Assembly (NCBI GenBank): GCA_017503075.1
Contig: JAFVTU010000008.1
Coordinates: forward strand, 1 to 64,000
Direction: 5' to 3'
DNA: 64,000 nucleotides
Source: Paludibacteraceae bacterium
GTDB taxonomy: Bacteria > Bacteroidota > Bacteroidia > Bacteroidales > Paludibacteraceae
Positions 57,601 through 61,886 of the stretch are shown piece by piece (the first letter of the stretch is position 1; each line of letters opens with the position of its first letter). Position numbers and translations under genes: made by a program. The notes under the pieces were generated by a model, which saw nothing but the letters and a program-made list of their open reading frames with translations, was not told where the DNA came from and made no database searches.

Positions 57601-58356
57601 ATGGAAAAACCAATTGCATTTATCATTCAAGCTCGTTTAGCATCAACTCGCCTGCCCAATAAAATCATGTTACCATTTTGGGAGGAGGAGACAATATTGG
57701 ATATACTCATCAATAAGTTGAAGAGATTTCAAAATTGTTCAATCATTTTAGCAACTTCTATTTCTCCGACCAACCTACCATTAGTCAAATATGCACAACA
57801 AGCAGGAATTAGCTATTTTCAAGGAGATGAATCTGATGTATTGAAGCGCTTTATTGATGCAGCAGAAAGTCAGCATATAGAACATATTATTCGCATCTGT
57901 TCGGACAATCCATTTCTAGATCTTTATGCGATTGAGCAATTATTGTTTTCTATCAAAGACAACGACAACTATGATTATATTAGTTTCAGTGTGAATAATC
58001 AACCTTCTATTAAAACACATTTTGGTTTTTGGACAGAATATGTAACCTTAAAAGCTTTAAAACAAGTTGCGGCATCAACAAATGAAGCATTATATCATGA
58101 GCATGTAACTAATTACATTTATAGCCATCCTAACGATTTTCAAATCAAGTGGTTACCAGTTCCAGAATGTATAACAAATCGATATGATATTAGGTTAACA
58201 ATAGATACTGAGAATGATTTTAGAACTGCCCAAACCATATACTCAGATTTATACAAAACTCGTATCCCGACTATAGAAGATATTGTAAAATACATAGATC
58301 AGAATCCTCAGTATCTATCGTGTATGCAAAAAGAAATTATCAATAACACTAAATAA
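57601..58356 (+). CDS. SpsF-family cytidylyltransferase, probable CMP-nonulosonate (CMP-KDN) synthetase
   Basis: A 251-residue nucleotidyltransferase. The N terminus has IIQARLASTRLPNKIMLPF, the CTP-binding signature of the SpsF/NeuA/KdsB superfamily; GDESDVLKRFIDAAE and IIRICSDNPFLD are also family marks, and RYDIRLTIDTENDF matches the late conserved region. It probably activates the sugar acid made by the next two genes to its CMP form. It starts 8 bp after the ispD-like stop. From here on the DNA is noticeably richer in A and T than the genes before it. Confidence 0.8.
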   Translation: MEKPIAFIIQARLASTRLPNKIMLPFWEEETILDILINKLKRFQNCSIILATSISPTNLPLVKYAQQAGISYFQGDESDVLKRFIDAAESQHIEHIIRICSDNPFLDLYAIEQLLFSIKDNDNYDYISFSVNNQPSIKTHFGFWTEYVTLKALKQVAASTNEALYHEHVTNYIYSHPNDFQIKWLPVPECITNRYDIRLTIDTENDFRTAQTIYSDLYKTRIPTIEDIVKYIDQNPQYLSCMQKEIINNTK

Positions 58357-58365
58357 TCGGTTATT

Positions 58366-59406
58366 ATGAAAAGTACATACATTATTGGTGAAATAGGACA
58401 AAATCACAATGGCTCCGTAGACATCGCTAAGTTACTCGTAGAATTGGTAGCGCGTCCTATTCACGAGGAATTGTTCCAATTGGATTTAAAGCCAATGGAT
58501 GCCATTAAATTGACAAAACGTGATTTATCTGAAGAGTTGTCCATCTCTCAAATGAACCGTCCATATGATAGTCCACACTCATTTGGCAAAACCTATGGTG
58601 AGCATCGAGCATTTTTAGAATTGTCCGATGAAGAACATTTTGAAGTATACAAACATGCAAAAAAATACGGATTAGACTTTGTAGAAACACTATGCGCCAA
58701 GGGTTGCTTATCGCTGCTTAAATTATTTACTCCCGATTACCTCAAAGTTGCTAGTCGAGATTTAACCAATCATCCATTATTAGAAGCGATGGCAGAAACT
58801 AAAATTCCTATCATCGTATCCACAGGTATGGCTGGCAAAAAAGAACTAGATGAGGCTATTGAAATTATCACCAAATACCATTCTAATCTTTCAATTCTAC
58901 ACTGTGTTTCACAATATCCGACTCATCCTGATAACTTAAACTTAAGCACTATTACCTATCTCAAGAAGCACTATGGTCAGTATCGAATAGGATTCTCAGA
59001 TCATACTATCGGCATATCAGCCCCCTCTATTGCTGTAGGAATGGGTGCAGAAATAATAGAAAAACACATCACTATAGATCGCAATATGAAGGGAACAGAC
59101 CAAGCAGGTTCACTTGGACCAGACGGTATATATCGAATGGTACGTGATATTCGAGTAACAGAACGTTGGCTAGGTAAAGAAGAGTTATATATAGACTCTT
59201 GCGTAGAATCCGCAAAAATAAAGTTGGAACGTTCTATTGCAGCCAAACGAAATATCCATATCGGTGATACAATAGAATTGGAAGATATACATATGTTAAG
59301 TCCTGGTGATGGATTTAAATGGAGTCAAAATCAATTGGTAATTGGCAAAAAAGCAGTGGTTGATATTCCTGCAAATGAAATTATCTACGATTACATGATT
59401 CAATAA
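58366..59406 (+). CDS. NeuB-family synthase, probable KDN-9-phosphate synthase
   Basis: A 346-residue PEP-dependent condensing enzyme. The NeuB barrel opens with YIIGEIGQNHNGSVDIAKLL; DAIKLTKRDLSEELS, NRPYDSPHSFGKTYGEH, LDFVETLCAKGCLSLL, YLKVASRDLTN and VSTGMAGKKELDEA follow; the C-terminal SAF domain (about 283-346; SIAAKRNIHIGDTIELEDI) is the antifreeze-like domain of sialic acid synthases. No NeuC-type epimerase is present, which fits use of a phosphorylated hexose such as mannose 6-phosphate, as in the KDN pathway of Bacteroides thetaiotaomicron. A related nonulosonate is the main alternative. Confidence 0.82.
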   Translation: MKSTYIIGEIGQNHNGSVDIAKLLVELVARPIHEELFQLDLKPMDAIKLTKRDLSEELSISQMNRPYDSPHSFGKTYGEHRAFLELSDEEHFEVYKHAKKYGLDFVETLCAKGCLSLLKLFTPDYLKVASRDLTNHPLLEAMAETKIPIIVSTGMAGKKELDEAIEIITKYHSNLSILHCVSQYPTHPDNLNLSTITYLKKHYGQYRIGFSDHTIGISAPSIAVGMGAEIIEKHITIDRNMKGTDQAGSLGPDGIYRMVRDIRVTERWLGKEELYIDSCVESAKIKLERSIAAKRNIHIGDTIELEDIHMLSPGDGFKWSQNQLVIGKKAVVDIPANEIIYDYMIQ

Positions 59407-59449
59407 TACCCAAATGTTTAAGCAAATATAAATTCATTTAAGAACACTA

Positions 59450-59950: not shown

Positions 59951-59954
59951 AATA

Positions 59955-60869
59955 TTATGCATTGTTTTCTACTTGTCCACTAATCAAACCCTTACTAACA
60001 TTGTATCTAAATCGTACCAAAACATTGCCTTTTGGTGATTGAAAAGAAATAGCATATAAAAACCATAAGATAATTGTTCCAACCCACTTTATACACTCCG
60101 CTACTAAACGTTTAATATATACCAGCCTACTAATTGAACAAGTACGTAAACGTTCGCTCACACCCACTCCATATCCTAAATTTCTAATATACTCATCTGT
60201 CGTTCTACGAGGTGGGATGCAGTGCTTTACCTCAATGAGTGGGAAATAATATATCGGATATCCTTCAGCATGGATACGCATAAAAATATCTTTTTCTTCA
60301 CCACCTAAAAGCAAGTTCTTAGTGCGTCCTAGCGAAGTGTTGAAATTCCCGATTTGATTAATCACATTTCTTGCTATACCCATATTTGCACCTATGGGAT
60401 ACTTATCTTTAGGAAATAATTTTACTTCATTTCCTAAGTTTATCGCACTCACAAAGCCCATTGACCATTTACTTAGCCATACGGGGCTTTCTTTTTCAAA
60501 AAATGGTTCTATAGCTCCACCGAATGCACCTGCGTTGGGATGGGATACTAAAAAATTACCGAGATTTTCAACATAATCAGATTGAACCATAGAATCATCA
60601 TCCAAGAAGACAAACCAATTTCCATGGGCTTCACGCATACCACGATTTCTTGCATAGGATAATCCAGGTGTAGTTTCTACAAAATAATGAAAGTTAATCT
60701 CGGGAAAATCCTTTACAAATCGTTCACATTCAGTATGGGTATTATCTGTAGAATTATTATTTACCAAAATAATCTCCCAATCAAAATGCGTTATATTAAT
60801 AGCCAATTGATTCAGACACTGGTAAATATATTTATCTCTATTATATGTGCAAACAATAACTGAAATCAT
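59955..60869 (-). CDS. Glycosyltransferase family 2 protein
   Basis: A 304-residue GT-A enzyme. It opens with MISVIVCTYNRDKYIYQCLN, then WEIILVNNNSTDNT, GLSYARNRGMREAHGNWFVFLDDDSM (the DxD metal motif) and GAFGGAIEPFFEKESPVWLS; a GGEEKDIFMRIHAEG segment carries the likely base. A hydrophobic stretch near the C terminus (WVGTIILWFLYAISF) may hold it at the membrane. Likely builds the same surface glycan as its neighbours; donor unknown. Start is 3 bp after the upstream gene's stop, so the two are coupled. Confidence 0.88.
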   Translation of the reverse strand: MISVIVCTYNRDKYIYQCLNQLAINITHFDWEIILVNNNSTDNTHTECERFVKDFPEINFHYFVETTPGLSYARNRGMREAHGNWFVFLDDDSMVQSDYVENLGNFLVSHPNAGAFGGAIEPFFEKESPVWLSKWSMGFVSAINLGNEVKLFPKDKYPIGANMGIARNVINQIGNFNTSLGRTKNLLLGGEEKDIFMRIHAEGYPIYYFPLIEVKHCIPPRRTTDEYIRNLGYGVGVSERLRTCSISRLVYIKRLVAECIKWVGTIILWFLYAISFQSPKGNVLVRFRYNVSKGLISGQVENNA

Positions 60870-60872
60870 ACG

Positions 60873-61886
60873 TTATTCTATTGGTATACATAATTCTTCT
60901 ACTATATGAATAGGAACTTGTGCATATTCGCGAATTATTGGCATATACGAATAGCAAACAACTCCCATTGCTTTTGCATATATAGCAACTGATGATACTG
61001 CTGTGTAAAAATCACATTGGTGCGCCATTATTGTATTCTCTAAGCTTACCTGTGAATCTAACTCTTGAAGATTAGCAGTAAAGTAATGTTTTATCCATTC
61101 ATTATATTGGCGATGCGCATTAATATGAGCACTTGACAAATTATAAGGATGATGTTTATAGACAATGTACTTATATTCTTTACTATTTACAAATGCAGCT
61201 AAGCGTTGAAATAAATATTCCGCATCCTCTTGCGATATCCACAAGAATAATGGATCTATAGAAATAATTGCATCAGGCACTTTTGCAAGCGGAACCGGTA
61301 CAAATGGAATACCTATTACGCGTGTATATTGTTTATGCAACGGAAAACACATATCATTGCTTGCAATGCACCCCTTGAATTTGTGGTGTTCCGTTTCAAT
61401 CATATGATTCTTCACTATAAATAATCGTGGGAATAATGGCTTCAATAGAAAATGATAAATTAATCCTTTTATTCCCGTAAAAGTAGGTTTATTTTCCTTT
61501 CTATATGATCCAGAACCATCTTCTATCACATAATAGCCTCTACAGTTAGGCTTGCTTACCATCAAACTGCAAATATCATTAAAACATACTTGCGTGTACC
61601 AAAGAAAGTCCTCGCCTCGAATTTCTTGATCTACTAACGAATCAAACTCCTGTACATTCTTTATCGTTTGCCAGATTCTCCATCCTGCAAAAATCCTTCC
61701 ATTAGTTGCAGAAACATTATACGAAGTACGTATTATGTGCGTATATAAGGATTGATACTCTCTTGGAATCATGTAGTCACGTGTGGTAAAGAAGATACAG
61801 TCGTCCACAGGAATAGCATCTATTTGTATCAGTCGATGACACAAATAAAATGCTAAATGACTACTTACTCCAAATACATGTTTCAT
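60873..61886 (-). CDS. GT-B glycosyltransferase with sialyltransferase-type motifs (polysialyltransferase/GT52-like), candidate KDN transferase
   Basis: A 337-residue protein with no obvious membrane segment. It carries the two motifs common to bacterial GT-B sialyltransferases: an acidic E-D-G (GYYVIEDGSGSYR, about 133-145) for the catalytic base, and H-P (KHHPYNLSS, about 239-247) for CMP binding, and a later Ser-Ser in TAVSSVAIYAKAMG. Together with the KDN-type cassette next door this suggests transfer of a nonulosonic acid from its CMP form. The overall similarity to named families is low by eye, so the family assignment is an inference. It is followed by GT2 and preceded by the YfhO-like gene on the same strand. 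Confidence 0.6.
   Translation of the reverse strand: MKHVFGVSSHLAFYLCHRLIQIDAIPVDDCIFFTTRDYMIPREYQSLYTHIIRTSYNVSATNGRIFAGWRIWQTIKNVQEFDSLVDQEIRGEDFLWYTQVCFNDICSLMVSKPNCRGYYVIEDGSGSYRKENKPTFTGIKGLIYHFLLKPLFPRLFIVKNHMIETEHHKFKGCIASNDMCFPLHKQYTRVIGIPFVPVPLAKVPDAIISIDPLFLWISQEDAEYLFQRLAAFVNSKEYKYIVYKHHPYNLSSAHINAHRQYNEWIKHYFTANLQELDSQVSLENTIMAHQCDFYTAVSSVAIYAKAMGVVCYSYMPIIREYAQVPIHIVEELCIPIE

Follow-up and report, generated by a model that had tools for sequence, protein, structure and literature searches.

A KDN-type gene island with a GT38-like candidate transferase at a site of differing glycan cassettes in Paludibacteraceae

We analyzed a 64,000-nucleotide stretch of DNA from a Paludibacteraceae bacterium (assembly GCA_017503075.1, contig JAFVTU010000008.1, positions 1-64,000), hereafter the window, to whose forward strand all coordinates refer unless another locus is named. 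Five adjacent genes at 57601-61886 are probably an acquired island for capping a glycan. It would combine a pathway for KDN (2-keto-3-deoxy-D-glycero-D-galacto-nononic acid) with a transferase for its cytidine monophosphate (CMP) derivative, CMP-KDN, at an apparent exchange site between an IspD-family gene and a YfhO-like gene. We call the candidate transferase GTX; it has 337 amino acids (aa) and is encoded at 60873-61886 on the reverse strand.

A KDN-type gene set in a low-GC island

The original prediction described a cytidylyltransferase, a NeuB-type synthase and a haloacid dehalogenase (HAD) phosphatase in a row, and all three were found in their places with Pfam support. On the forward strand, a candidate CMP-KDN synthetase (57601-58356; PF02348 cytidylyltransferase, E 4e-24) precedes by 9 bases a candidate KDN-9-phosphate synthase with a NeuB barrel and a SAF domain (58366-59406). 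The HAD-type KDN-9-phosphate phosphatase follows (59450-59950, starting at GTG 59450 or ATG 59453). GTX runs convergent to this cassette. Between the two lies a family-2 glycosyltransferase (GT2; PF00535; 59955-60869, reverse strand), which the original prediction had not mentioned. The GC content of 57601-61886 is 34.8%, compared with 48.2% to the left (54859-57592) and 46.3% to the right (61888-64000); elsewhere in the window, no equally long stretch falls below 39.9%. Because its GC content lies so far below that of the flanks, the five-gene stretch looks like one acquired unit, and is probably a small gene island imported from elsewhere.

The phosphatase scored 273.7 bits against the KDN-9-phosphatase model NF058599, whose cut-off is 180; no genome among 14 controls reached it. 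With chain 3e81, which we take to be BT1713 of Bacteroides thetaiotaomicron, the phosphatase has 104 of 152 residues (68%) in common. Glu56 and Lys67, presumably involved in specificity, are both conserved; 4hgq has Ala at the position of that Glu. The synthase scored below the cut-offs of the models for N-acetylneuraminic acid (Neu5Ac) synthase (NeuB_NnaB; 233.5 vs 399.65 bits) and pseudaminic acid (Pse) synthase (200.2 vs 340.25 bits). We aligned it with the synthases of 13 other GTX and KDN loci and with meningococcal NeuB. The Arg314 column held Ser in all four KDN-type synthases and Arg in all five of the Pse or legionaminic acid (Leg) type, while the five short synthases aligned have no SAF domain. 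As described in a passage of PMC6795526, Arg314 positions the N-acetyl group of N-acetylmannosamine (ManNAc), and an Ala in its place leaves the enzyme inactive.

No route to ManNAc was found in the genome (99.55% complete, 5.49% contaminated), since Epimerase_2 (PF02350) and GlcNAc_2-epim (PF07221) had no match anywhere in it and the two matches of NanE (PF04131), at 23.8 and 18.6 bits, were both below the cut-off of 27. The lack of a NeuC gene, predicted for the row, thus extends to a genome-wide search with the NeuC/WecB family Epimerase_2. The phosphatase score, the Ser at the Arg314 column and the lack of a ManNAc-supplying epimerase agree with the earlier assignment of the gene set to the KDN pathway type. 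If the island is expressed, the NeuB-type synthase would join mannose 6-phosphate and phosphoenolpyruvate (PEP) to KDN-9-phosphate, the HAD phosphatase would release KDN, and the cytidylyltransferase would convert it to CMP-KDN.

Alternatively, the cassette could make Neu5Ac through ManNAc-6-phosphate as in animals, whose pathway also includes a phosphatase step, with GTX as an ordinary sialyltransferase, in keeping with its predicted fold. Against this stand the Ser at the Arg314 position, a synthase score well under the NeuB_NnaB cut-off and the results of the epimerase searches, which make this alternative very improbable.

A KDN product is also consistent with how the cassette is arranged in other Bacteroidales. 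Close homologues of the synthase (62-80% identical) occur in 22 other genomes of the 393 sampled. We examined 22 KDN-type loci, from 20 of these genomes (G398 and G432 were left out) plus L053 and L054. A similar cytidylyltransferase lies upstream of NeuB in 20 of the 22 loci and the phosphatase downstream in 21, with one gene between in L104; L105 ends at the contig edge. The KDN cassette by itself is therefore of a known and common kind. In the two exceptions (L104:3900-5720 and L109:3413-5083), the upstream gene encodes a protein of 556-606 aa that is not a cytidylyltransferase by BLAST; it matches legionaminate-type NeuB at 27-29% and is possibly a fusion.

These loci also bear on a second alternative, in which the product transferred by GTX is another nonulosonic acid without an N-acyl group, such as an epimer of KDN or a KDN that is later modified. 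NeuB-type enzymes are not assignable to one sugar from sequence, and the arginine of the SAF domain is also missing in the five short synthases, which leaves room for a further sugar of this kind. However, the phosphatase lies far above the KDN-specific cut-off and close to the presumed BT1713, and the cassette order is the same in most of the 22 loci. We therefore consider this alternative unlikely, and retain KDN as the product.

Fold, motifs and gene linkage of the candidate transferase

The sequence of GTX gave no match beyond chance in Pfam or NCBIfam and none of note in the PDB, and the best match of a GTX profile to PDB sequences (E 0.014) was taken as chance. Since sequence homology gave no match of note, a comparison of folds was needed. 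The predicted fold of 60873-61886 is of the GT-B type and closest to the structure of a GT38 polysialyltransferase (PDB 5wc6/5wcn), at 12% identity. No GT52 or GT42 structure was recognisable among the fold matches listed, which excludes nothing. The GT52 family PF07922 matched two of 15 GTX family members weakly (best 15.5 bits, cut-off 26.1), and NF046086 was not among the GTX matches at E 0.1. The polysialyltransferase family PF07388, with a gathering score of 23.3 bits, was exceeded by five of the 15.

The D/E-D/E-G and (K/R)xHP motifs, as defined in passages of PMC2169525 and PMC12887879, are present in all 15 family members. The E-D-G and H-P motifs that had been predicted for the convergent GT-B gene correspond to EDG at residues 122-124 and KHHP at residues 244-247 of GTX. 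Mapped onto 5wc6 by motif order, D123 falls at the catalytic base, K244/H246 and S298/S299 at the CMP, and E283 at the ribose. As an enzyme of the GT38 polysialyltransferase type, GTX would bind CMP-KDN via K244-x-H246-P247, E283 and S298/S299. With D123 as base, it would transfer KDN by an inverting mechanism to a glycan in the cytoplasm, to which the neighbouring GT2 may have added the preceding sugar.

Of the 358 genomes of its family, 11, its own included, have a GTX homologue. A scan of one genome per species (84,980 species), built on two peptide patterns and therefore liable to overlook distant relatives, gave 14 loci. Ten of these are contigs already in the family scan, for a total of 15 loci including the window. 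The proteins are 41-58% identical to that of the window, and the organisms are named as Paludibacteraceae or Bacteroidales bacterium. Their sources are sheep, goat, yak, roe deer, red deer and horse, and two are RUG assemblies with no host named.

In all 15 loci, GTX lies within or beside a set of genes for making a CMP-activated ulosonic acid. Two carry the KDN cassette: the window and L043, where cytidylyltransferase, NeuB, HAD phosphatase, GTX and GT2 stand in one row. Two others (L044 and L045) encode PseB, C, F, G and I, all ten proteins scoring over equivalog cut-offs. A legionaminic-like set is present in one (L046), where the LegC-family aminotransferase, NeuB and NeuC exceed their cut-offs and the dehydratase and cytidylyltransferase candidates have no NCBIfam match at 1e-30. 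In five loci (L047, L051, L061, L065 and L068), a cytidylyltransferase accompanies a short NeuB of about 290 aa. The remaining five (L048, L049, L050, L052 and L060) have an HMGL-like aldolase with a cytidylyltransferase, and no NeuB was found in them. In these last two groups, some proteins were checked against Pfam and NCBIfam and the others were named by similarity to those. A profile search of the 393 genomes of the order added two distant relatives, L074 with a short-NeuB set and L075 with a Pse-type set, the latter with its GTX-like frame interrupted by a stop. Fusions of about 380 aa between a cytidylyltransferase and a KDN/KdsC-type HAD phosphatase (L061:8839-9984; L065:8851-9999, by reading; L068:8730-9890; L074:13476-14636) adjoin NeuB proteins of about 290 aa without a SAF domain.

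The aldolase protein, about 520 aa long, stands at the place of NeuB (L067:11021-12580, also L064, L066 and L070), with a distant version at L060:805-2385. Its HMGL-like half matches 3dxi, a 'putative aldolase', at E 1e-104 over profile positions 8-316. The C-terminal half has no assigned family, and a PF02348 cytidylyltransferase is present in the locus. This pairing may represent an aldolase-based route to a CMP-ulosonate, so far undescribed; no paper on such a route was recognised in our literature search.

The proposal that GTX is a direct candidate for a KDN transferase is supported by its predicted fold, its CMP-site motifs and its linkage to CMP-ulosonate gene sets. GTX represents a GT38-like branch tied to KDN and four other ulosonate types. 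As its best fold and family match is a polysialyltransferase, GTX might instead be a polymerase making a poly-KDN chain, like its polysialic acid-making fold relative. Yet it is shorter (337 residues vs 381-382 in the 5wc6/5wcn chains) and its relatives adjoin five donor types. Furthermore, no capsule export genes were recognised among the open reading frames of the window and its extension, although no systematic search was made. We doubt that GTX is a polymerase, and favour a transferase that adds a KDN cap.

Several points weigh against this reading of the island or limit its support. The window GTX has no PF07388 match, and its residues were assigned to 5wc6 by the order and spacing of motifs, not by superposing individual residues. 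As to linkage, seven of the 11 family genomes have a NeuB within 6 kb of GTX; under uniform placement the chance of this is about 1e-13 (1e-11 with two NeuB genes per genome), an estimate that takes no account of how glycan genes cluster or how the loci are related. The 15 loci are not all independent, as the 88% identity between the aldolases of L067 and L070 illustrates, and the genome carries the contamination given above. Finally, the GTX profile had no match at E 1 in the 22 other KDN-type loci; the cassette therefore does not need the GTX family.

GTX is not the only transferase candidate for KDN loci. A protein of 452-456 aa adjoins the phosphatase in L053, L103 and L106, and one of 407 aa precedes the cytidylyltransferase in L097. 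These four match NF046086 (the BFO_1060 family) weakly, at 31-52 bits with a cut-off of 200; judging by the locus prefix BFO, this is presumably a Tannerella forsythia model. Proteins of that same length in L100 and L114 had no NF046086 match. PF07388, scanned in only a few neighbours of the 22 loci, matched another protein in L098 (33.3 bits, cut-off 23.3).

Differing cassettes between IspD and YfhO

We examined the same site in five close relatives without GTX (L147-L151). In three of them (L147, L149 and L150), the interval is still bordered on one side by the KdsC-like gene (92-95% identical) with IspD (79-81%) next to it, and on the other by YfhO (83-87%). In place of the KDN island, their IspD-YfhO interval carries LicD-family genes (PF04991) and glycosyltransferases, in cassettes at L147:3525-6885, L149:12991-13677 and L150:2283-6535. 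PF04991 scored 31 bits over a short stretch in L147 and L149, and 124 bits in L150. The neighbours of YfhO in L148 resemble genes of amino-acid biosynthesis, and the L151 contig ends in a GT2-like fragment. Because the flanks are conserved while the content of the interval differs between sister species, the stretch between IspD and YfhO appears to be a place where alternative decorations are exchanged, and related species would carry other caps there. The L147 cassette also contains a nucleotidyltransferase (NTP-transferase)/aminotransferase fusion and an ornithine-cyclodeaminase-like gene, and that of L150 a cytidylyltransferase-like/asparagine-synthase-like protein.

These relatives also inform on whether the neighbouring GT2 is the KDN transferase, with GTX using another donor and being present through gene clustering. 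GT2 homologues (40-64%) do lie within about 4 kb of GTX in nine of the 14 other GTX loci. However, 43% homologues occur at the same site in the LicD-carrying L147 and L149, from genomes without a NeuB match, and it is GTX that has the CMP-site motifs and fold. We regard transfer by the GT2 as highly unlikely, and keep GTX as the candidate.

In a tree of GTX proteins, the KDN- and Pse-linked members form one clade (100/100), within which the L043 protein (row L057) groups with the Pse pair and not with the window protein (99/96). Seven of the 13 inner branches are open; our reading uses the KDN and Pse clade and that of the four proteins linked to aldolases, and not the long-branch position of L074. 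From the grouping of the L043 GTX with the Pse pair, we read the tree as pointing to a switch of donor inside a single lineage of transferases. Extending this, GTX may represent a single line of cap-adding transferases, located at a chromosomal site of cap exchange in Bacteroidales of the herbivore gut and repeatedly re-aimed at chemically different CMP-ulosonic acids: KDN, pseudaminic, legionaminic-like and the short-NeuB product. One further donor would be a 3-deoxy-ulosonate, so far undescribed, that is formed through an HMGL-like pyruvate aldolase and not a PEP-dependent NeuB. We put this wider model forward tentatively, with somewhat more doubt than confidence.

Related systems and the setting of the island

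KDN synthesis by enzymes of a gut Bacteroides was reportedly described by Wang et al. in 2008, and the loci of the B. thetaiotaomicron pathway are presumably BT1713-BT1715. Besides the likeness of its phosphatase (3e81), the window shares with this pathway the set of cytidylyltransferase, NeuB and HAD phosphatase without NeuC; for the synthase and cytidylyltransferase, the likeness is one of gene content and not of sequence compared with BT1714 and BT1715. Passages of PMC9000132 and PMC12413058 cite the pathway as known. In contrast to the window island, these passages name no transferase, and a 2025 review states in one of them that the capsule structure of B. thetaiotaomicron is still uncharacterised (PMC12413058). 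Our literature search found no paper on a KDN transferase of Bacteroidales, which is weak evidence of absence as subscription journals are poorly covered, and nothing relevant on rumen nonulosonates. With a candidate transferase encoded next to the cassette, where the KDN goes becomes a question that a few purified enzymes could address. The GTX series, each with its own donor pathway, is a set for studying how CMP-sugar transferases choose among ulosonic acids.

Known transferases differ from GTX. GT38 polysialyltransferases (5wc6/5wcn, PF07388) are set apart by the low identity, the missing PF07388 match and the position of GTX beside genes for KDN and other ulosonates. According to parts of PMC6388019, GtfS and TFUB4_00887 of T. 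forsythia transfer Pse or Leg derivatives, as confirmed by knock-out. They share with GTX the order Bacteroidales and the D/E-D/E-G and HP motifs, but are 442-445 aa long with a DXD motif. NF046086, a model that may or may not cover GtfS, did not match GTX. The GT118 enzyme KpsS1 of Acinetobacter is likewise a bacterial nonulosonic acid transferase; as excerpts of PMC12887879 describe it, KpsS1 is KpsS-like and a retaining Pse transferase, whereas GTX resembles an inverting GT38 enzyme. On bacterial surfaces, KDN is reported in Serratia capsules, where it depends on capsule-locus genes and neuB disruption abolishes sialic acid (passages of PMC9000132), and in Haemophilus influenzae (PMC7845648). 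Both belong to another phylum, and the passages name no KDN transferase. Here, the island appears to make and attach KDN in a bacterium whose relatives live in the guts of grazing animals.

To the left of the island, in what we take as host sequence, a KdsC-like HAD phosphatase (56338-56850, forward strand) scores under the cut-off of NF058599 (169 vs 180 bits) and over that of TIGR01670 (125 vs 107). It is followed by the IspD-family cytidylyltransferase (56879-57592, forward strand; PF01128), which ends 8 bases before the cassette. An ordinary capsule locus is not favoured, as IspG, the KdsC-like gene and IspD lie on this side and Rnf-type genes, recognised by eye, lie past YfhO. To the right, again in presumed host sequence, the YfhO-like membrane protein (61888-63999, reverse strand) is separated from GTX by 1 base on the same strand, and its open frame continues to contig position 64533. 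The complete protein has 881 aa, a Pfam match that is weak at most, and a homologue in 56 of 61 genomes of the genus; given its position beside the cap cassettes, it may serve the same glycan.

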